A DNA stretch of 64,000 bases. It comes from Mesaphorura yosii. Lineage: Eukaryota > Arthropoda > Collembola > Poduromorpha > Tullbergiidae. A program made the position numbers and the translations under genes. This document shows, piece after piece, positions 14,786-63,807 of the stretch (within the stretch, counting starts at the first letter, position 1; each line of letters opens with the position of its first letter). Location: NCBI GenBank assembly GCA_009869945.1, contig WIXG01000297.1, positions 1 through 64,000 on the forward strand. The letters are read 5' to 3'. The notes under the pieces were generated by a model. It was not told where the DNA came from, searched no databases, and saw only the letters and a program-made list of their open reading frames with translations.

Positions 14786-15261
14786 ATAATTGTACTGTGC
14801 TCAAATTCAAAGCAGTGAAATAAATACGAAATGTGCATTAGCATTTGCATTATCCTGAAAGTACCCCACGCGATCATGAATTGAAGAAGCTTTCTTATAT
14901 TTTAGCAGACCATTTAACCCTCCGACTCTCGTGAGTTCTTTTCAGCAATTTTTAGTTTATTTTAGGAAACCCCGTTAACTTTGGCTTTTAGTGTTGATTT
15001 AGTGACCTTTATCAGTTACCATCACCACATCTCTGACGTCTCTGAACATCGCTTGCCGTATCTCTCATCCGTTGATCCCGATTTCGACATCGAAAGCCCA
15101 TCGAATATCAAATTATTTCAACTATAAAGTTCTTAGCACATTGTGGATAACGAAGCCAAGTTCTAATACAACACAAAATAATTAGATTCGAAGCATCGAT
15201 AACATTAGCACGCACGATCTAATCGCACGTTTCAGACAACGAACACATACGTAAGCCAAAA
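14786..15261. other. Short intergenic stretch with poly(A) signal
   Basis: Contains the AATAAA (14819-14824) ending the knottin gene and the upstream region of the first TPR gene. Nothing else is recognised. Confidence 0.5.
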
Positions 15262-17388
15262 ATGATGAAAGGAGTCGCCCCGCTCCGCCGACCGTCAACG
15301 ACTCTCCGCAACTTGAATCCACCCGTATCAATACACGATCTTGACGCACTAGAGACACACAAAAATTGGTTTCGGACATTGTCCCTTCAAATTTTGGAAG
15401 TAGATACGGAGAAGAAATTGAATAAAGCCGTTGAATGGTTTGCTGATGAGATGGGTGAACTCAAGGAAATTCCGCTCGTGGTGATTGGTCACAATTTCTA
15501 CACGTTTTTTCTTCAGAATTTGCTTGGGAAAAGAAATTATGCATGGTGGACGCTCGATTATTTGGGCATTATCCTGGAGGATGTCATCACTGACCAGAAC
15601 TTGAGCCAAGAATCCGTTCAAGCTTTACAGTATTTGTTGGTTTGTGAGAAAGCAGCGCTTTCTTATCAATCCGATAAAAAGGATGGAGCTGAGCAATATT
15701 TGGATGAAATGCGAGCCATGTTCACTCCAAATTTGCACTCAGCAAAGGCTCGTGCCGCAATCTTGTGTATGATGGGCCAATTTGCAGGGAAATGTGATAA
15801 GGAGGCCAGAATTCATCTGCTTCGAGAAGTGAGTCACATTCCAGTCGAACAGTTGGAGATTTTCAAGTAACCTTCTAATTCATTACTTTACAGGCCATCC
15901 ACCTTGATCCAGACAATTGGCAGTTGCAACTGTGCTTGTACCGAGCATTCCGTTCTTATCGCCGTGAATTTGCGTGGGAATCAGCACCTTATGATGAAGA
16001 AGTGTCCGCATGTTGGAAAGGTGTTGAGTTATTCCACAGATTGCAAACGTCGTCTTCGACTGGAGGACTGGACGCCAGTGTCCACCTTTCATTAGCAACA
16101 CTTTTAGAGGAAATCATTTTGGCTGAGAAACGTGGAGTTGTTTACAATTTGCTGGACGGGATTTCCATTGAAGAGTGTTTGCTCTCAAGTGCAAGGTAAT
16201 ACTTGTATTAAGGACTAAGGCACCTATCTGACATGTTTTCTCTAATATTCACTTGGTCGCTAATTGATTTTGTTCATGATTAACAGGAAGGCTGCAGAAC
16301 TGACTCCAAATTGCATTGCGACACAAGTCAGATATGCCGACGTCTTTTCACATGGACCCACATTCAATCTTATTGAGTCAGAGGAGCAGTACAAATACTG
16401 CCTCAAGAAATGGCCGAACAAATCGCGAGTTTCGCATAAAGCTGGCAAATTTTATGCCCAGCACGTGAGTTATAATTTATGAGTTCAGAGTTTACTGCTA
16501 TCTCGTTTCCATTCTTTGTTCTAAGCTCTTGTTGTCTCTGGACAGACTGAGAACATCCAGCATGGCCTTAACCTACTGCGTAAAGGCATCGAATTAGACA
16601 GGGACAATTTCCCCTGTTGGGCCGATTACGTGCGTTACAAAACACAGGCCATCGAAGGTCCTGAAGAACGGGACTCGCTCATTTCCATGCTGGACTCCGG
16701 CATTGCAAATTTCGAGAGAAATCAGAAACAAGTGTTCAAACTCAAATTACTCCATGCGAAGGGCACCATTTTGTGGCATCTTGAGCGCAAGGAGGAGGCA
16801 ATTAACTGTTGGGTTGATGTATTTGAATGTGAACTCCAATCGGGCGTAGTATCGCTAATGGTAATTTAACGTGGTTCTTATTTATCCTTGCTCATCTTTG
16901 GGCATTTAAATTCCAATCTGAATTTTTTCCTGCAGCACGAAATGAAATCGATTTTGATGCTCAAAATTCGCGTAGATTTTACGCAACTGTTGCAAGCGAT
17001 GGAAGAATTCAAGACCAAAAATGCGAGTGAGGCTGATGAATCCCGAATGAGCGCCATTAATCAACTCTCAGATATGCTAAGTCGAGAAATTGCAGCCAAC
17101 GGAACCGGAAGGCGTGAACGAGCCCGCTTGCCTTCTGCTGCTGACATGGACAATAATTGGAGGACTGGAAACGGAGGAATAAGTGAACAGGATCAGCTCG
17201 AAGCAGATGCTAGCAGCCAGAATCAGCTGAACGGCAATGAAAATCCGTTCGGCCGGTTCAGGGTTCAAGAGATCACAACCACTAGACGGGAAAGAAATCT
17301 GAGATGCTTCCCACAAATGAAATCTGTTCGCAGCAGCAATCGTAAATTCGCAGCGTCAAATTTGGATGACAACTGGAGGAAATCATAG
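15262..17388 (+). CDS. TPR/IFIT-like helical-repeat protein, copy 1
   Basis: Likely cytosolic scaffold or RNA/protein-binding protein built of tetratricopeptide-like helix pairs; the actual role is unknown. Exons 15262-15828, 15894-16195, 16287-16464, 16546-16860 and 16936-17388 give 604 aa, with clean splice sites throughout. Repeat-like helices include AIHLDPDNWQLQLCLYRAF, AAELTPNCIATQVRYA, KAGKFYAQH with GLNLLRKGIELDRDNF, and AKGTILWHLERKEEAINCW. The alternation of these with longer helices recalls vertebrate IFIT proteins. The last exon is low-complexity and polar and carries two DxxWR motifs, MDNNWRTG and, at the very C terminus, LDDNWRKS. Its tandem partner at 18279 has the same intron positions for the first four introns and the same ending. 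Resemblance to IFIT is by layout, not a firm family assignment. Confidence 0.7.
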
Positions 17389-18278
17389 TTATAGTAGTTA
17401 CTCCGTTGAACTCTCACGACGACCTGCTATCCAAATTAAGCTTGCAATATTAAACTACATTTTTTTGCTATCGTTTTCATATTTCTCGCTGGCTCGCGCT
17501 CGCTCGTCGTTCTTGACGTTTTCGATTTTCCACCTGTTTAATTTTTAACTGTGTTTTGAAACCTTCTACCAGGTTCTATTTCTAAACGGACTGAGTTTTA
17601 GTTGAGTTTTGACTTTTCCTACGTTGTAAAATATTTGAGACATGCGTCTTACCGTACGCGTACTTTAATAAACGTTAAGATTTTCATCCTTTTAATATCC
17701 TCATCAGCGTTTTTGATTCATTGGATTGTTGTACAGTATGGAGTAGATAGTCAAATACCTGATACCTGCATTTATGGTTTACCGTTAAAGAGTCATAATT
17801 CAAACATTTGATGCGGCATGGAGATTACGATTTACGAACTCGAACGAGTCCAGTCTCCAACCAGGACGCTTTTTGTATGCAAATGCAAGCTGCGTCGCTG
17901 CGAGGCGCGTCCGTGTAGCTTCTATTACGTTGTATCTTTCTTCTGTGGTTGTTAACTGTTAAGTTTTTTAGGATTTTATGTTTTAGACGAATTTCATTAA
18001 CGTATGCGATTACGATTACTAATTATTATCCAGTGATCGGTTATCATCAGCAGCAGCAGAGTGGCTGAGACAGCCGCGGTTCGTCAAGCAAGGAGAAGAC
18101 ATACCTCAATAACTGTTGATTGCTGATATTTAATCTTGTTTTGGCTGAGCGCAAGCAAGATCTGCAAACAAGTAAGTATTAGTGTAAAAGTGTAATCAAT
18201 TGTCAGTTATCGAGCTCCTAGTTTTTGGCGTGTGTGAACCAAAGCTAATGAAGAATACTCCTTGGCATATTTACAAGT
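17389..18278. other. Spacer between the tandem TPR genes
   Basis: No coding exon seen. The stretch includes a small cagcagcag run near 18048 and the probable promoter and 5' untranslated exon of the second TPR gene. Confidence 0.4.
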
Positions 18279-20642
18279 ATGCAGGTCGGAGTGCCACCCC
18301 CGGAGCGCCGGTATGCCACTACTTTTACCTTTGAACCGCCCAAATCAATAGAGGGACTAGATGGAATCGAAGGTCACTTTAATTGGTTCATGAGCCGGAA
18401 GTATGACCTCCACGCACTGGAAATCAAAACTGAGAAAAAACTCAAGGCAATATCAGATTGGTTTGACCATCTTGGGGAACTAGATGCACTTCCTCTTTCT
18501 CGTGTTGGCAAACATTTCTTCAAGTCTTTTCTGGAGCAGGTAGTTGGAGAGCCAAGCGATGCATGGATGACACTGGATACCACCGCAATTGTCATCCAAA
18601 GTTTGCAAGATATCCTCAGCGAAGAGGCCTTTCAAATTCTGAATTACTTGCTGATTTGCGAAAAGGCAACATTCTCTTATCAAGCAAAGAATATGGAGGC
18701 GGCAGAGTACTACTTGAGCGAGATGAGACAATTGTTCACGCCGGAATTGTATTCAGAAAAAGCTCGTGCGACCATCTTGTATTTGCTGGGCCACTTTGTT
18801 GCATCTGAGAAGGAAGCAAGAATTCACTTCTGTCGTGAAGTAAGTCATTTATCAGGGTCAATTTTTGTGCAGCCGTAGCCATTGTATTTAGTTGATTTTC
18901 GTAATTATTTCAGGCTGTGGAGTTAGACCCAGGAAATTGGCAATTACAGTTGGCCTTGTACAGAGCACTTCGGTCCTATCGTCGTAAGTCGAATTGGGGT
19001 TGTGGACCTTACGTCGAGGAAGTGACCACTTGCCTGAAGGGTGTACAGTTGATCAACGAGTTGAATCCAACTTCCGACGGTCTGAGAGCATTGGCAAACA
19101 TTAATTTGACACACCTTTTGGAAGAAGTCTTCATTGCTGCTGGACGTGGAGCTGAATATAATCATCTTATACCAGGACTTCTACCAGTTGACGAGCGTTT
19201 GCTGTCTTCTTCGCGGTAACTGACTAAAATTATACTACTATGTCACTGGCATTGTCATTTCCCCTGCCCCTACTACGTTTGAAGTCTTATCGGGTCTTCC
19301 TAATCAGTTACAACGTAAAAATAGAGACGCAGCCGAATTAACTCCAACTTGTCTGTCCACACAAGTCAAATATGGAGATGTTCTATCACGATTTATCCGT
19401 GGCTCTGCTTCGAAGCTTGCTGAATGCGAAGAACAGTACAAGTATTGCTTGGCGACATGGCCGAAAGACTCACAAGTTTTTCACAAGGCTGGAAAGTTTT
19501 ATGCGCAGCACGTGAGTAGGAATTTATATTGTACTCTTCTACTTGCAAGTTTTATTTGGCCATTTGGCTAAATCTGTCTTATCTTCTTATATCCCCAGAC
19601 TCAAAGGACCGATTACGGTATTCAACTGTTATGCATCGGAATTGAACTGGAGGAAGACAACTTTCCATGTTGGATGGATTATTTGCGTCACAAAGTTAAA
19701 CATTTGTTGCTACGCGAAAACGAAAACATCGAAGAATTTGAAGAGTGGGAATTGCTTTTGGCCAAGTTGAAGGAAGGGATCGCCCATTTTGACTTGACAC
19801 ATAAGCCCGTATACAAACGAAAACTACTTCAAGCAAGGGGCGCGATTCTCTGGAAGCGTGGGTATACTTGCGAAGCACTTAATTCCTGGATTGATGCCTT
19901 TGAGATCGAGTTTAACCCGGAAAATTGGAAGGTAATTCAATTTACTCAATAGGCGAAGAGGATACCGGCAAGGAATGGTCGTGTATTTACGTTGTCTTTT
20001 CTTTTACTTTTAGAAGGACATGGCTTCAAGTTCAATATTTTCAGTCTACGTCAATTTTGGCAAAGTTCTGGGGGAATTGGAGAAAATGAAGGCCGCAGAA
20101 GGAATTCCGACCACACGTGCAGATGTTATGAATCAGCTCACCGAACTTCTGAAGGCAGGCAGAAAAGAACGCAATCGGAACTGGAACAATGACAGCAACG
20201 AAAACGTAGGAGGTCGTGGTAACCGGGGACAAGGCTATACAACGTGCGCTGCTGATAAGGATGGCGATTGGAGAAGACCTAGACCAAGAGCAAGCTCCAA
20301 CGATGTTGAAAACCTGAGCGACGCGTTTGTTTCATGGCGACTTGGTGAAGGCGCAGCTGCAGCTCGAGGAGACACGGCACAGAATTCTGATCACGCTCCT
20401 TATCCATTGAGCGGCAGCTGGAACGATAATGGAAACGGACAAAGTTCTGCGGCTCATGGAAAGCGTCGTGGCAATGACAATGACTCCACCACCGACAAAG
20501 GACGGTTCGTAATTCTTCTAAATGTTCTAAATACTTAATCAATTTCGATTGCGTAGTTCATTCTTGAATCTTGATTGGAACTTTTTATTGCAGTATTCGT
20601 AAGACAAGCGAATCGGATTTCGACGACAATTGGCGGAAGTAA
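18279..20642 (+). CDS. TPR/IFIT-like helical-repeat protein, copy 2
   Basis: Tandem paralogue of the gene at 15262. Exons 18279-18839, 18914-19215, 19325-19511, 19599-19931, 20014-20504 and 20594-20642 give 640 aa. Conserved blocks are AVELDPGNWQLQLALYRAL, AAELTPTCLSTQVKYGDV, YKYCLATWPKDSQVFHKAGKF (given here in part) and DNFPCWMDYL. The last intron uses a weak donor (GTTCGT); phase forces this choice, since the nearby GTAATT would give an immediate stop. The tiny last exon supplies only the end of the protein, ESDFDDNWRK. An earlier DKDGDWRRP matches the DxxWR motif of copy 1. The tail is long, polar, Asn- and Gly-rich, and more diverged than the helical body, yet the DxxWR motifs are kept, which suggests a conserved docking peptide. 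Confidence 0.7.
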
Positions 20643-25224: not shown

Positions 25225-27806
25225 TTAATTAAGCTTCCTATCAATTCTTTTACGAATTTGAGATACAATCAATAATTCGAGGAGGAACGCGACAAAGGCC
25301 GACAGCAGCCCGAAGCACAACACGTGAAACGTTGCTCGGACATTTTGAATTCATCGACAATGCAGCAGGCGCTGGCTCCTTCGACCGGAAATTTGTTCCT
25401 GTCTTCCCCATTGCATCAGTGCTGTTGCCGTTCGTCGCCTTCATTTTCTGAACCTCGGCCTGCCACAGGATTGGCTGCTTCTCATTGCACCACTTCTCCC
25501 AAAACGCGTATATTCCTATGGCAATCATGCTCTGTATCCTTTTGTACACGTACTCCACGGCGAGCCCACCGCCATCGAACCGGAATCTATAGTGGATTCG
25601 GCTCGTTGCGATCGGGTCCTTGAATGTGATTAAAGACACTGGTTTCCGTTTTCTTTGGCTGTCGCCATTCATTCCTAAGTACTCTTTGAAATACTTCATC
25701 TGATCCTCAGTTTCGGCGATGGCGCTCCGATCACAGGTCGAGACAGCCTCAACAAACATTCTGGTCTGGTTTGGGGTAAAGTCTCTGACCTCGTCTTGCG
25801 GGAAGTTTGAGACGACTAGGGCGAATGTGCTGGGAAACTGCTTTGATTCGCCCTGGCTGTTGGCTCCATGGGATTCTGAATCTGGCATCGGCCTCCTCTT
25901 CAGCGCCTTCCAAAGATTCCACTTGGACACCTGCTCAGACGCGAGATCCACTCCACAGCTTACGAGGATCCGAGGGCCTTCACATCCGTCTTTGCGGGAC
26001 CAACCATTTACTGCTGTTGAGTTCGCTGAAGCCGGAGTCTTCTTTTCCGTACTGCAATTTCCATTTCGATACATTTCCAACTCCTTTAGACCTACCGAAT
26101 ATTGATCAAACTCGCCTGTCACCACCACAATTCGCAATAAGGACGTCCGGTGCACAGAATAAATGCGGAATCCTTCCAGTTCGGACAGAGAAGCCCACGT
26201 TACATGTATTGGAATCGAGCTGGCTAGTTCCGAGACGATGAGCCCTTTGTAGGCGTTGGTGAGGATGACCGACAACAGTGTCCAGAGACCAATCGTCAGC
26301 ACGAAGCAGTACTTTAGCTTCCAACTTAACTGTACGGCTCGAAGAATGAATGGAGACTGCTCCAGAATGACGCTGATGGCGTTCGCAAGAAGATTGTAAG
26401 CCGTACGCGTATTATTCCAGGATGAGCTCCAAGACGATTCCAGATAAAATGCAGCCAGGCACATAAACGCTACAAGCGCTCCAATTGTCGCCGCAATGAG
26501 AATCCATGACGTCTCATCAAAGGGGTGGAGGAGAATAGTTAGGTCAAGATTTGTCCCTACGCCGTCACAAGTAGCCACGTGCAGGCGGACAACCCCGATT
26601 AGAAGGAGCACGGCCTGCATGGCCATGCCGTCTGACCATGCTTCAGAGAATTCCTCTACGTAAAGCCATTGAAAGTACTGGAAAAGACGCAACTCAATGC
26701 TGGACGATCGCACAGCAGACAAAGCACAAATCTTGTCACCATGCGCGTAATATTTGAGGTCCTCCAGCGCCAGGTACCTTATAATGACTTGTAGCGGCAA
26801 AGGAGGTGGCTTGAACGGGTTCGAAGTATTTGGCTGCAGATTTAGAAACTCCAGCCTGTTGCTTTCCTTGAGCAGAGCGGCGAGATAAGATTTGGTGGAA
26901 TTGTAACGCGTGGTGGACATGACACAGGATCCGACGTCTTTGCTGAAGGAGCCCTCAAACAGTACGACTTTCCTGAGCTCTTCGGTTTGGCTTTCCAAGT
27001 CTTGACGGAGTGCATCCAATTCAGCTCGCCATCGGTACGCATGGACTTCGTTGTGGTTTTCGTCCAGCATACAATTTGTGAGGGGAACATCGAGGAGCGC
27101 GAACACCCCAGCCGATGCTCTCCGAACGTTATACGTCGTACTAGGCCAACTTGACCAGAGCCCACCATGCGGTTGTCGTTGAGGGTGCCGCTGCGGCTCC
27201 ATTTCAAGTAGCATGTAATCCAGTCGTCCGAACCAGTTGGAAGTGGGGAGTGGCCTTTGGCTTGCTCCTTGCGAATTAAGTTCCAAGGTCACAAATACGT
27301 ACAGGAATGGAAACCGAAAGCAAGATGGATTATTGAAATCAGAAAAGTCTCCAGTCGAGATGCAGTCCAGCCGACTTGATTTAGGGTTCCATTTCCAGTC
27401 AACAGATGTGCCCGGTTCTCGCGCCGTGTCCGTGATGTAGGCTGTGATGATCTGCTCGTTGTACGACGGAAGGATTACGATGATGGTCCTGCAGGGGAGC
27501 TCGACGTGCAGGTGTCTACTGGGCAGAGAATAATTCTGCGAAGCGTTGGAGATTGAGATTGGGTCCAGAGGAGGGTCGAATGCCTGAACGGCTGCGGCGG
27601 CTACGTCTGTAGCAGGAAAGATTACGTGGATGAAGCAATTTTTGAATTCTGTTGTCAGACGATTCAAATGTAGAAATGTGGTTTGTTCAGAGTAAATCCG
27701 AATGCCGTTAAAAATGTTGGGATTTCGTGACTATAGACCCGTTTAACCAAACCAGATAGAAAATAAAGAGACGCAAAATGATCCATGCCATTGTAATGGC
27801 ACCCAT
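25225..27806 (-). pseudogene. Divergent ionotropic receptor, apparently frame-disrupted at both ends
   Basis: Variant ionotropic glutamate-receptor family member (chemosensory ion channel subunit). The central open frame, 27667-25250, carries the extracellular ligand-binding halves, M1 at WILIAATIGALVAFMCLAAF, M3 at LSVILTNAYKGLIVSELASS and the second ligand-binding lobe. It lacks a start. A good signal peptide, MAWIILRLFIFYLVW, lies just upstream (from 27806/27786) but is one frame off. The last transmembrane helix, FHVLCFGLLSAFVAFLLELL, ending at a TAA at 25225-25227, is also in another frame. Comparison with the duplicate at 24880 points to one extra base near 25345-25355. Either a recently dead gene or two sequence errors; the long clean central frame fits either. 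Its head-to-head neighbour is an intact paralogue. Confidence 0.65.
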
Positions 27807-28138
27807 GCCTTGAGTCACCGAAAATAGAAAATCACGAAATATTCAAATCAAGAAGCCAAAATTCTTCAAAATTAAATCAATAAAGGAAGACAGCGCCCAT
27901 ATGAAAGAGTTTAATTTTCATTACTTTAAAGAGACACTTGAGTAAAGAAGTGCAAGGCATGAATGAACGAGCCGACAATGATGCAATCACATTTGGCACT
28001 TGGTTAGTCAAGCGTCGATTACACTGCCAGCTTGGTTATCGACGGAGCCACATATCACACGAAATAGAAGTTAATGACGGTAGTTACAAAATTATTTGCT
28101 CCAGATGGAACGTAGTCTGAAGGTGAACAATCGCGAAG
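27807..28138. promoter_or_regulatory. Head-to-head spacer between two ionotropic receptor genes
   Basis: 332 bp separating the divergent starts of two paralogous ionotropic receptors. It must contain both promoters if both are transcribed. No clear TATA or initiator was recognised. Confidence 0.4.
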
Positions 28139-30697
28139 ATGGCTGCCCGTACAAGATATGGATTGCTCGCCGTTCTTGTCAATTTCTATTTTTACTTCTT
28201 CGCAATTTTTGCGTTTGAGAAGGTAAATCTAAGACACACTTATCCTTCAATCGTGATCCAAGACCTAAACGCATTGATGACGGAATTCAGCGGCTGTTTC
28301 ATACATATGATTCTTCCTGGCAACGACAATCGCAATGCGTCCGACCAGAAACCCTTCGACATACACATTGAAGAGCCACTGCACCCGGTGTCCATCTCCG
28401 TCGCAACAGGAAAGTATGCGCTTCCCAGTCGCCATCTGCGGGCAGAGCAAGTCTGTAGAGCGATCATCGTTGTGCTGCCTGCGTACAGCGAGTTGACAAT
28501 CGCGCAATACGTGTCAACCGGAATCTATCCGATCGATCCGTCGAAACTTCCTTTGAACTCCGCCGTACCTCCCGAATACACTCGGCTGGACTGCATTCCA
28601 AGCGAGAAACCGGATCTGGCCGCATGCTTCAAATTTCCGGTGTTGTACATCTTTCTGGCACTTGAAGGTGAAGGCAAGGAAGCCATGGCCCAGGGTGTGC
28701 CACTTCCTTCCTACCGCGACAATTTGTTCACCGTGCTGGATTTTGTGTCATTTGATCTGGAGTCGGTGCAAATGGGAGTGACAGAGGAAGCAGGGAAGCA
28801 GCGTACTGAACTTGAGCTTGGGTTTGTGCTGAAGGGAGGAACGACGGGAAAATTTGGACTCGTTCACATTCCTCTGCAGAATTGCTCGAGTCTCGGGTCG
28901 AAAGATACATCTCCAGGAATTTGTCAGAGCGAGCTTGAATCACTGCGCTCCGCCTTGGACTCTCCTCTCCTTTCAAATACTGTTTACTTTTACGGCGTGT
29001 ACAACAAAGAGATGGGATTTTGCACCTTGAAAGACGCCTACGCACGACAGAATTCAACTACGGCCTACATTCAAAATATCTTGGATCCAGGAAAGCGGAA
29101 GCAGATGCCCCTCTTCGACATGCCCAACGGCACCGACCCTTTTTATCCACCGAGAATTCACCCAGACGTTGTGCTCTGGTATTTGGCGCTCTCGACGCTC
29201 TCCTTCTATGCTGCTGCTATTGGATCAAAAGAATGCATTCCCGACCGGTACGAAGGCGATGATACGGCGTTGGCATTGGTGAACCTTTTCCCGTGGATGA
29301 AAGTCCAGCAGGTCAGTGAGTACGACGATGTCGATCAGCACCTCGTGCTGGTCAGGACCGTCAACATGCAAGCGGCGACGTGTGACGGTGTTCGGAAGGA
29401 GCTTGACTTCGAGTTTCTGCTCGACCCGTTCGACCACGAGTCGTGGACGCTCGTCGGCACGGCGATGGTGCTCCTTTCGGGCTTAGTGCTGGCGCTCGTG
29501 ATGTTTCTGGGCTTGGCAAGAGGCTCCTTCTGGCATACGACCTTCATTTTACTTGTCTCAAACTCTTTCGGAGTGCTCGTCGAGCAGCCTCCATTCATTC
29601 CTCGGGCACTCAAACAGAATGCAACCTTGAAAAGTTGTTTCGCGTTCACACTCACTCTTTCGGCGCTGATGGCTGTCATTCTGACCAACGCATACAAGGG
29701 GCTGGTAGTTTCGGAGCTGGCTAGTCCGATTCCAGTACATAGCAGATGGGAGTCGTTCTCCGAACTCGAGGACTTTCGCCTGTACACGATGCACTTGTCG
29801 ATGGCGTTCCAAGACTGGATGTGGGAGGGACACGATGCAGTTCTCGTCGGGAGCGAAGGGTGGCTGGATGGAGCCTGTACAAATACAAATCGTTCAGCCA
29901 CCCGCGCCCGGACACAGAACTCGGAGTCTAAGTCCGACAATTGCGACCAGCTGCAGGCACTCCTGGACACAGGCCTCAGCATGGACGACGTGAAAAGGTG
30001 GCAGTTCTGGGTGACACTACGGGCGCGGCGCAAACAGGTGCACAAGTCCGATGAAGCAAACATGGCGGCCACGACCACTCGTCGGCTCGTTCCTGGTAAG
30101 CTGACAATCGCAGTTGCGCACTCATATCATGACGTTATGAACACGCTGACCCCCAATCAAACCCGGGATTTCGTCGCGGCAATTTCGAACTGCCACAAAA
30201 CCGGGATCATCGAGACGGAGGAGCAGCTCCGCCATTTCATTCGATTCATAAAGGCAAAGACGCGGGGGAAGAGTATTCCGGTGCAGGTTGGGGACACACT
30301 GACAATAAGACGGGTTTACTACGCGATTGAGTATGCCCCGAGTGGACGGGCAGGTTTGAAGGTTTACAAGAGAGTTCAGAACATGCTTGCAATGGGGATC
30401 TACGAGCTGTGGGACACGTGGTATAGGGAGAAGCACGAGACGATTTGGGAAGAGGAGGCGGAGAGGGTCCACGCCGCCGACTACGATGACGATGCAGTCG
30501 TGGAGTACAACGAGAACAAGCCTATGCCCCTGTCCTTGAACTCCAACATGCAGGCGCCATTCTACATACTTGGATACGGTTTCGGAGCGGCGGTTGCGAG
30601 TTTTACACTTGAAATTGGGTTGCCGTTGTTGAGAAAGTGGGTGGCGAAGTTTATCAGCTATGTAATAGTACTTTATTGTTTCGATGATTCAGAATGA
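28139..30697 (+). CDS. Divergent ionotropic receptor (IR), intact, single exon
   Basis: Chemosensory ionotropic receptor related to ionotropic glutamate receptors, expected in sensory cilia. 852 aa with no intron. The signal peptide (LLAVLVNFYFYFFAIFAF) precedes a long extracellular region containing the first ligand-binding half. M1 lies at about residues 435-460 (WTLVGTAMVLLSGLVLALVM), a pore-loop region near residue 480, M3 at about 500-530 (LSALMAVILTNAYKGLVVSEL) and M4 at about 805-830 (FYILGYGFGAAVASF). The M3 end reads NAYKGLVVSELASPIP in place of the SYTANLAAF of true glutamate receptors, as in divergent arthropod IRs. The glutamate-binding Arg/Thr/Asp set is not recognisable. The paralogue at 25.2-27.8 kb is divergently oriented and disrupted. 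Confidence 0.85.
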   Translation: MAARTRYGLLAVLVNFYFYFFAIFAFEKVNLRHTYPSIVIQDLNALMTEFSGCFIHMILPGNDNRNASDQKPFDIHIEEPLHPVSISVATGKYALPSRHLRAEQVCRAIIVVLPAYSELTIAQYVSTGIYPIDPSKLPLNSAVPPEYTRLDCIPSEKPDLAACFKFPVLYIFLALEGEGKEAMAQGVPLPSYRDNLFTVLDFVSFDLESVQMGVTEEAGKQRTELELGFVLKGGTTGKFGLVHIPLQNCSSLGSKDTSPGICQSELESLRSALDSPLLSNTVYFYGVYNKEMGFCTLKDAYARQNSTTAYIQNILDPGKRKQMPLFDMPNGTDPFYPPRIHPDVVLWYLALSTLSFYAAAIGSKECIPDRYEGDDTALALVNLFPWMKVQQVSEYDDVDQHLVLVRTVNMQAATCDGVRKELDFEFLLDPFDHESWTLVGTAMVLLSGLVLALVMFLGLARGSFWHTTFILLVSNSFGVLVEQPPFIPRALKQNATLKSCFAFTLTLSALMAVILTNAYKGLVVSELASPIPVHSRWESFSELEDFRLYTMHLSMAFQDWMWEGHDAVLVGSEGWLDGACTNTNRSATRARTQNSESKSDNCDQLQALLDTGLSMDDVKRWQFWVTLRARRKQVHKSDEANMAATTTRRLVPGKLTIAVAHSYHDVMNTLTPNQTRDFVAAISNCHKTGIIETEEQLRHFIRFIKAKTRGKSIPVQVGDTLTIRRVYYAIEYAPSGRAGLKVYKRVQNMLAMGIYELWDTWYREKHETIWEEEAERVHAADYDDDAVVEYNENKPMPLSLNSNMQAPFYILGYGFGAAVASFTLEIGLPLLRKWVAKFISYVIVLYCFDDSE

Positions 30698-61552: not shown

Positions 61553-63807
61553 TTACTTATTAGGCGGCGCTTGATCGTCGTCGCCGCCCGACAGTTGCGC
61601 GACCAACATCTTGAACTGAGGGCGCTCGTACTTGCTCCAGCTCCAGCATGCCTTCATGATTTCGTATCTGTAAAGGACAAGCGCAGAATTTAATGAGAAA
61701 TTTTAACGAATTTTACGAGTTTCTGTCCCAAAGTTTGAGAAATCATGTCACCAGTAAACGAGCACGAGCTTACATGAAATCGGGCGCAATCTTCGGCTGC
61801 AGGAGTCTCAGGCCATTCTCCAGCTCCGACACAAAATCCAGCGACCACGACCTGCCGGGGTACGGAATGTCTCCGAGGCTGAATACTTCCCAGATGGTCA
61901 CTCCAAAGGCCCAGATATCAGACTCGGTCGAAAAGCTCATTTCACGGAGTGACTCGATGGCCATGTGGCGCCAAGGTAGCGGAGCCTGTTGCTTCTTGAC
62001 GTAGTTGGTGTAGTCGTATAGCTGGCGTGATAGGCCAAAGTCTGTGATTTTCGCTGTGAGGGTGGAAGTTAGGAGAACGTTGCGTGCGGCTAGGTCTCCA
62101 TGAATTACTTTCTTCGACTCGAGGTACTCCATACCCACGGCAATTTGGCGACACCAATTGACCAGTTGACCCGTCGTGATCGAATCGGCGTTTTGATAGT
62201 CCCTGACCCAAAGTCAAAGCCAATCAAGTGGTAAGGCCAGGCAATTAATTTAATTAATTGATATTCTTGCTTACTGGGCAGCAGTGTTTTGGTAATCATG
62301 AGCCGGGCCCGCAGTAACACACTGCTTGCGACTCCTCAAATAATTCATGAGGTCCCCGAGCTCACAGAATTCCACGACGATCAGCAGTATGCCTGAGAGG
62401 AATGTACACTTGTATTTACGCAAATGAAAAAGCTGGCTTTGGGCACCGCACAAGAAATTATTACCGCCCAGCCTTGGCCTTACCATTGTTCAGTCCGTTC
62501 GTCACCGCCCCGATGAGTCCAACAATATTTGGACATTTCCCCAGGTAAATCATAATCTTCAGCTCACTCAGGAGTGCTTTGATGTACATTTTATCCGTGT
62601 TGGGCTTCACAGCCTTGACTGCAACTGGGGCGCCGTAGCCAGTCAACTCCGCTCTAGTCACAAAACCATACTGGCCCTCGCCGAGGATCTTCGTGTTGTC
62701 GCACTTGAGTTTACCCATTGGGATGTCGTAGTCCTTATTGTAAGGCATGTACTGAATGTTTTCATGCAGAGGAGCCTGATCGTCGTCGGTATCTCCGTTG
62801 CCAGCGCCCTTGTGCGCCTTCAGCCGGTCAGGAATCCCTTCACGAAACTCTCGGATTTCTGCCTCCGTGAGCCCGTTCAGTTTGAGCAGAATTTGCCTAA
62901 AGTAGTACGCAATCGAGGTGCCGATCGCCGCCAGAATGGCGAGTGGGAGCCCGATGGCGAGGGCGTACGACAAGGCGCTCATGCCGCCGCCTGGCTTAAC
63001 GGTCAGGTGAAACGTTTGACTGCTCTGTCTGTAGAAATTGCGGGCGTTACAGATGTAAAGTCCGGCATGGTATGCCCTCACGGTTGGAAAAATAAGTCTC
63101 ACTGTCGGCAGAGGCTCTTGCGTCATTGTTTGGTTGCGCAGCTCATGAAGAGCATTCCGGTCGTACTCCCACGTCAATTCCGGCGGTGGAGTTCCGTTCC
63201 CTCGACAGTAAATATACTGGTCATTTGTTCCGGCCGTGAATGTGATATTGAACGATTCCCCTCTCGCCTCCAACAGCGTGATGGTGGGCACCGTTGGCTG
63301 AGGCGTCACCGTACAATTGTCTAAGTATTTGTACTGGTCTAGGTTCTTTTCCTTGCACCCACGGACCCAGCCGTTCCAGGCCTTGAACGGGGTATCCGTG
63401 CTCTTCTTGATTTCGAGGGCACATGCCACGTCGTCGGTGATGTCCTCGTCGAGGAAGTCGGAGCAATTATTGTTGCAGGGGGTCTTAAGGTCGCCATTTT
63501 TACTGGACATGTCATCCTCGCACCACCAAAGGTTGTTGATCTGGAACACGCCGTAGCTCCTGCTGGTTGGGTCTTCGGATGCTGTTGTCTGTAGCGAGGA
63601 GTCGATGCCCGAAAGCTCTTCTGCGGCGCAGATCCAGTCGCCGAGACGTGCCCAGTCCTCTGAGCCGAGGAGGGGTTTGAGTTTTGTGGCGAACTCACAT
63701 CGCGACAGACGCTTGGCTGAAACGAAGGCAGGATCAAGGCTAAGCCGAAGGTGGGTGAAGGTGATTATGCAGAAGAATATAATCGATTGCACGCGCGTCT
63801 CTGGCAT
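61553..63807 (-). CDS. Receptor tyrosine kinase with C-type-lysozyme and Ig ectodomain
   Basis: Single-pass receptor kinase of novel architecture. Exons 63807-62484, 62392-62275, 62202-61774 and 61667-61553 give 661 aa; all junction phases agree. Signal peptide about 1-31. Residues 33-165 form a C-type lysozyme domain with all eight cysteines (37, 60, 96, 111, 115, 129, 151, 165) and the motifs GDWICAAEEL and SYGVFQINNLWWC. The catalytic Glu and Asp positions are Leu65 and Ser84, so it should be inactive. An Ig domain follows (about 172-272; Cys201, Trp213, YIC to 253), then TM about 279-303, a VEGFR/PDGFR-like juxtamembrane (QYMPYNKDYDIP) and a kinase: GEGQYGFV, VAVKAVK (Lys398), HGDLAARNVLL, DFGLSR, MAIES and SDIWAFGVTIWEVF. 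The first exon codes for lysozyme, Ig, TM and N-lobe continuously, so the fusion is not a mis-joined prediction. DDDQAP occurs both in the juxtamembrane and near the C terminus. Confidence 0.9.

Follow-up and report, generated by a model that had tools for sequence, protein, structure and literature searches.

The 64,000-nucleotide stretch of DNA analysed here (the window) encodes a receptor tyrosine kinase (RTK) that carries a C-type lysozyme outside the cell membrane, and it is one of at least nine such genes in the same genome. Judged by its sequence, the protein is an RTK variant with a strong pseudoenzyme signature, and we are close to certain of both the fusion architecture and the catalytic death of the lysozyme. 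The two catalytic acids are gone and the catalytic residues of the kinase are kept, so that the enzyme appears to have been lost and the signalling end retained. This pattern suggests that a retired germ-digesting enzyme has been turned into a sensor. If true, an animal would have made a signalling receptor out of a digestive or antimicrobial enzyme whose fold was kept while its acids were lost, and the same kinase chassis also bears other hydrolase-derived ectodomains. The detection of bacterial or chitin glycans in animals is generally credited to receptors of other types, and the family would provide a direct test case for whether RTKs can do it too, with nine natural variants at hand and the four free-standing lysozymes to serve as controls.

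The window gene, with all the features listed here, is encoded on the minus strand. Its four in-phase exons, all with GT-AG borders, encode a 661-residue protein that ends at a TAA stop and reads signal sequence, C-type lysozyme, immunoglobulin (Ig) domain, transmembrane (TM) helix and kinase. Exon 1 (62484..63807; gene model and Pfam) runs from the signal sequence through the juxtamembrane region into the kinase N-lobe. The start codon and presumed signal peptide (63715..63807, about residues 1–31) were recognized by eye; the hydropathy of this segment stays below our threshold of 1.6. The C-type lysozyme domain (63310..63723; Pfam, 80.9 bits against a cut-off of 27, and alignment) has eight cysteines, a DEDITDD calcium-type loop, and Leu65 and Ser84 at the positions of Glu35 and Asp52. 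It is followed by an I-set Ig domain (62992..63312; Pfam, 32.4 bits, cut-off 23.7; modelled with a pLDDT of 79–90 per block), the core of the TM helix (62908..62964, residues 282–300; Kyte-Doolittle mean 2.11 in a 19-residue window) and the kinase N-lobe (62484..62712; Pfam, 33.5 bits, cut-off 23.1, and alignment), with its GEGQYG glycine loop, the Lys of VAVK and the Glu of helix C. The gene model places the hinge and an insert of the kinase in exon 2 (62275..62392). Exon 3 (61774..62202; Pfam, gene model and alignment) encodes most of the C-lobe, including HGDLAARN, DFG and PLPWRHMAIES (160.5 bits), and exon 4 (61553..61667; gene model) the kinase end, the C-terminus and the stop. A second hydrophobic segment, at residue 428 (mean 1.61), falls inside the kinase. 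A sequence-only reading of this DNA had proposed one exon from signal peptide to N-lobe and three further in-phase exons finishing the kinase; Pfam, hydropathy and the 661-residue model agree, with the signal peptide seen by eye only.

The window protein has what the sequence of an RTK should have: a complete kinase with Lys, Glu, Asp, Asn and DFG, an ectodomain and one TM helix. The kinase has HGD in place of HRD and is not an RD kinase. Its lysozyme belongs to PF00062 by score and by its eight cysteines, which are four disulphides' worth; with Leu65 and Ser84 it lacks the Glu35 and Asp52 of an active GH22 muramidase. In sequence it also resembles alpha-lactalbumin, since DEDITDD fits the pattern DxDxxDD and Glu35 is replaced by Leu. 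Alpha-lactalbumin partners a galactosyltransferase, which is a further mark of membership, and we therefore do not file the window domain as a member. The PDGFR/VEGFR class has an ectodomain of several Ig domains only, and one Ig domain plus a lysozyme does not fit it. AlphaFold gave the ectodomain a mean pLDDT of 52.7, with the lysozyme part below 50, and the lysozyme domain alone 42.9; because both runs are of low confidence over the lysozyme, we assign its fold from the sequence.

The window gene is not the only one of its kind, contrary to what the sequence-only reading had implied. In the genome to which the window belongs (93.0 Mb, 1127 contigs), contig numbers carry a C, the window's contig being C297; C1b stands for C1 near 659 kb and C604b for C604 near 17 kb. 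A genome search with PF00062 and single lysozyme proteins found at least 14 lysozyme loci, a lower bound for an exon-by-exon search. Nine are lysozyme-RTKs on nine contigs (C297, C328, C176, C535, C346, C313, C1b, C966 and C604b), each with the kinase on the same strand. Another, C549, stops partway through the Ig domain that follows its lysozyme, and no kinase turned up in the 6.7 kb of downstream sequence examined; it may be a truncated gene, a pseudogene or a secreted decoy. The other four (C1114, C167, C1 near 552 kb and C118) are free-standing lysozymes, with no kinase in the stretches fetched around them. We refer to the domains of the nine lysozyme-RTKs and of C549 as the ten RTK-type lysozyme domains. 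C297 and C328 score 80.9 and 82.1 bits with PF00062, and the other eight 62.5–80.5 bits, all against the cut-off of 27.

Two architectures occur in the family. Four genes read lysozyme, Ig, TM, kinase (C297, C328, C176 and C346, with the Ig above the Pfam cut-off in all four), and five read lysozyme, TM, kinase with no Ig seen (C535, C313, C1b, C966 and C604b). At the N-terminus, C535 resembles C297 in staying below the hydropathy threshold; C328 (2.15) and C346 (2.91) rise above it. C328 repeats the domain order of the window gene, with lysozyme (82.1 bits), I-set (25.9 bits), TM and kinase N-lobe (35.1 bits) in one 441-residue frame. The two proteins are 51% identical in the lysozyme, 51% in the Ig domain and 82% in the kinase, so that in this pair the ectodomain has changed faster than the kinase; in C535 and C346 it has not (67% against 68%). 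Prokaryote genomes gave 14 pattern matches, none of them confirmed as a relative, and viral contigs gave no relative.

Could the fusion be an artefact, that is, a mis-join or a pseudogene? C549, which breaks off inside its Ig domain, is the one locus that looks that way. The window gene and eight others, however, lie on separate contigs and are open over the parts read. Moreover, single frames span the junctions, from the start through the lysozyme to the N-lobe in C297 (449 residues) and C328 (441 residues), and from late in the lysozyme to the kinase end in C535 (500 residues) and C346 (674 residues). The same domain order in C328, on another contig, means that the window gene is due neither to chance nor to misassembly, and it excludes an assembly join inside exon 1, which would have undone the sequence-only reading. 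As far as DNA can tell, misassembly and pseudogene are rejected for the window gene, and we regard an artefact as extremely improbable.

Loss of the catalytic acids is a property of the whole family. Both Glu35 and Asp52 are absent from all ten RTK-type domains. The residue at the Glu35 position is Leu in C297 and C176, Ser in C328 and C604b, His in C549, Ala in C535, C313 and C346, Gly in C1b and Cys in C966. At the Asp52 position stand Ser (C297, C328, C549), Asn (C535, C346), Tyr (C176), Glu (C313), Leu (C1b, C966) and Met (C604b); the counterparts are less sure in C966, which has a two-residue insert near Glu35, and in C176, which has a long insert before Asp52. Residue numbers are those of hen lysozyme, which was used in the comparison together with alpha-lactalbumin. 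The free-standing lysozymes keep Glu35 in four of four cases and Asp52 in three, C118 being the exception. Acid loss in ten domains out of ten points to a settled pseudoenzyme and not to a single decayed copy; the replacement of both acids with retention of the eight cysteines, proposed for the window gene from its sequence, thus extends to its relatives.

All ten RTK-type domains keep the eight cysteines and Trp108, nine keep Trp63, and nine have an aromatic residue or His at position 62. Three further cleft residues of hen lysozyme, Asn46, Gln57 and Asn59, are not invariant. The DxDxxDD calcium-type loop is present in C297, C328, C176 and C966 and incomplete in the other six. At the other end of the protein, every one of the 36 kinases that we examined, the nine lysozyme-RTKs included, retains the catalytic Lys, Glu, Asp, Asn and DFG, and from these residues the lysozyme-RTK kinase looks alive. 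Comparing the three window-clade copies with one another gives a dN of 0.38–0.42 and, where it is defined, a dS of 1.5–2.5. A dN well under dS is consistent with constraint, within the limit that dS is saturated or undefined in most copy pairs.

Known proteins resemble the window receptor in parts. Among solved kinases, those closest to the window kinase over its whole length are CSF1R, FLT3, KIT and VEGFR (190–209 bits); the top row is an EGFR chain, which scores by two kinase copies. These receptors share with the window receptor an outer Ig region, a single TM helix and the kinase; they differ from it in that the window receptor has an extra lysozyme outside the Ig domain, and HGD for HRD. 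The link to the C-type lysozyme/alpha-lactalbumin family (PF00062) lies in the eight shared cysteines, scores of 62–82 bits for the ten RTK-type domains and an intron at the Trp28 site in four copies. In contrast to that family, the RTK-type domains have both acids replaced and are joined to a receptor kinase.

Among systems known to work, the nearest parallel, as an analogue only, is tobacco CHRK1, a plant serine/threonine-type kinase. PMC10573068 describes it as a kinase with a chitinase ectodomain that is inactive for want of Glu, and on that account a glycosidase-fold ectodomain without its catalytic Glu, a membrane location and a kinase would work alike in outline. According to PMC5485988, ectodomains of the CHRK1 kind, which are GH18, are instead predicted to be active. 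The CHRK1 ectodomain is GH18 and that of the window PF00062, and the two fusions do not share common descent. Diversity of ectodomains on a common kinase is also known from holozoan RTKs with shuffled ectodomains, as described in PMC8662651; the word lysozyme does not occur in the main text of that paper. In line with the statement of the sequence-only reading that no such receptor had been described, the open-access full-text literature, with subscription journals mostly outside its scope, yielded no RTK with a lysozyme ectodomain among the matches listed.

How might such a receptor work? We propose that it would sit in the plasma membrane, where the dead lysozyme would bind a ligand without cutting it and the Ig domain would serve as a spacer or second contact. 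Ligand binding would cluster the receptors, and the clustered kinases would phosphorylate each other and downstream partners. We give this whole chain, with the ligand left open, a probability of about 0.6. Sensing of a ligand by the lysozyme domain is in our estimate probable to the same degree.

For the ligand itself we tentatively favour a GlcNAc-containing glycan, a fragment of peptidoglycan or chitin, though we would put this at somewhat less than even odds. The argument is that the sugar cleft has kept its aromatic wall, in Trp63, Trp108 and position 62; the variation at Asn46, Gln57 and Asn59 speaks against it. Such a receptor may act in immunity, the gut or development, as the sequence-only reading had suggested. 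Alternatively, the dead lysozyme could bind an endogenous protein, or calcium together with a protein, and the receptors could act in development or tissue maintenance and not in microbe sensing. Alpha-lactalbumin itself is a dead lysozyme that works by protein binding, and this precedent, with the calcium-type loop kept in four of the ten domains, favours a protein ligand in some copies. The nearest solved relatives of the window lysozyme include milk lysozymes, horse among them, with alpha-lactalbumin further down; the best of the milk lysozymes are from dog. These milk lysozymes bind calcium. The kinase, too, is closest to receptors for cytokines and growth factors. However, the calcium-type loop is incomplete in most of the family, and the cleft tryptophans are kept more widely than the loop; on balance we consider a protein ligand possible but rather doubtful.

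Introns tie the ectodomain to lysozyme genes. In the free lysozyme C1114 a phase-1 intron splits the Trp28 codon, and a phase-1 intron at the same site occurs in the lysozyme-RTKs C176, C313, C535 (which has Phe there) and C346. This common position supports descent of the receptor domain from a lysozyme gene. A phase-1 intron at the Ala82 site is present in C176, C313 and C346. Hen lysozyme has introns at both the Trp28 and the Ala82 sites. As far as their ectodomains were read, C297, C328 and C549 are free of introns.

The kinases and the lysozymes tell different histories. On the 36-kinase tree, lysozyme-RTKs occur at three separate positions. C297 stands with C328, and C176 is near them (the test does not reject a clade of the three, p 0.13). 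C535 and C346 lie within the Kelch receptors (100/97), and the other four, C313, C1b, C966 and C604b, make up a clade of their own (100/99), found at the midpoint root. A single kinase clade was rejected for all nine (AU p 8.6e-61), and also for the five rows without C313 (AU p 2.2e-13). The lysozyme label changes at least five times on this tree, with well-supported branches alone forcing two of the changes. In the lysozyme tree, by contrast, the ten RTK-type domains separate from six free ones with weak support (63/78), and C297, C328 and C549 group with C535 and C346 (92/92), although the kinases of C297/C328 and of C535/C346 lie apart. In both sets, unread stretches were entered as gaps or X (the middle of C167; the joins of three late-found copies). 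Since the lysozymes group, if weakly, and the kinases do not, either the ectodomain has been exchanged between kinases or it is ancestral and has often been replaced.

A lysozyme-RTK could have founded much of the expansion, its lysozyme later giving way to Kelch, Ig, GH17, subtilase and other domains, with the present lysozyme-RTKs as relics. The scatter of the family over three parts of the kinase tree, with a four-member clade at the root, and the nevertheless single, weakly supported group of lysozyme domains both agree with this history. Yet the root is a drawing choice, the 36 kinases come from a larger set, and the trees are also explained if an already dead lysozyme-Ig ectodomain moved from one paralogue to another; we regard an ancestral lysozyme-RTK as a fair possibility that falls a little short of an even bet. 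It is compatible with either a glycan or a protein ligand. That ordinary lysozyme genes joined RTKs several times, each losing its acids separately, would also leave the lysozyme-bearing kinases in more than one clade, as the rejected topologies show. Such repeated capture is improbable, because neither acid is present in any of the ten domains, because these domains group, if weakly, against the six free ones, and because the lysozymes of the window clade and of C535/C346 belong to one lineage (92/92) despite their separate kinases.

Lysozyme is one of several ectodomains on this kinase type. Kinases like that of the window match at least 148 places in the genome; of 198 first-look candidates 150 were scored, and the 36 that we read come from the top of the 148 listed, together with loci from the lysozyme search. 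The HRD Arg is absent in all 36. Over the whole genome, an exact-motif count gave 59 HGD/HAD kinase sites against 29 HRD and two HSD (the last two classes came as 31 sites, two of which have Ser by codon); the pattern is exact and misses other spellings, and only part of the 59 sites is on the tree. A reversed-pattern control for these counts found none. Among the receptors with other ectodomains, a Kelch domain is above the Pfam cut-off in five of five. Ig domains are above it in three of the eight receptors so labelled (C328b, C285 and C489), below it in four (C636, C651, C618 and C611) and not found in C259. The EB module passes in C553 and C799 and not in C727. The CLCA-like region is a label given by eye, with no Pfam match in the four stretches scanned (C610 was left out).

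Other hydrolases occur among these ectodomains. C789 (L048, 854-3427) encodes a subtilase, a TM helix and a tyrosine kinase in one 858-residue frame (subtilase 98.2 bits, kinase 255.5 bits). By eye from the alignment, its subtilase triad keeps Asp, has Met for His, and has Asn at the Ser site; this site was placed by the usual Ser motif, and the aligned chain itself has Ala there. From these residues the C789 subtilase is probably a second dead hydrolase. C981 (L054) encodes a related kinase with a subtilase end recognized by eye, with no Pfam match in the part read. The two receptors of C175 have GH17-like ectodomains (29.4 and 30.2 bits, cut-off 28.2). One of them, C175b, keeps the Glu of GETGWPS, which means that hydrolase-derived ectodomains are not all dead for sure. 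The C175 genes (L019, L037) form a divergently transcribed pair. GH17-like frames with no kinase seen are present in C154 and C169, and the free GH17-like protein of C154 found no match in the PDB.

Taken by their sequences, the HGD/HAD kinases are a wider expansion with exchanged ectodomains, some of them apparently hydrolase-derived. Among the immune receptors of plants, kinases that lack the HRD Arg are frequent. An animal lineage may have built a plant-like set of pattern receptors, with the 59-site HGD/HAD kinase chassis bearing retired hydrolases (lysozyme in nine genes, a subtilase without its His and Ser, a GH17 glucanase-like domain) and other modules as sensors of microbial or dietary polymers; we offer this as speculation and think it on the whole unlikely.

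Elsewhere the window has the look of an unremarkable animal contig, with genes for DOCK, a HIF1A-like bHLH-PAS protein, V-ATPase subunit a and a cytidylyltransferase. Two long divergent frames, at 25253-27730 on the minus strand and 28127-30694 on the plus strand (826 and 856 residues), are alike by eye and have no Pfam match. Two plus-strand frames of about 210 residues, at 15223-15867 and 18252-18875, are also alike by eye, the first of them without a Pfam match. Outside the window, the same contig bears a further HGD tyrosine kinase site, at C297:88199-88621.
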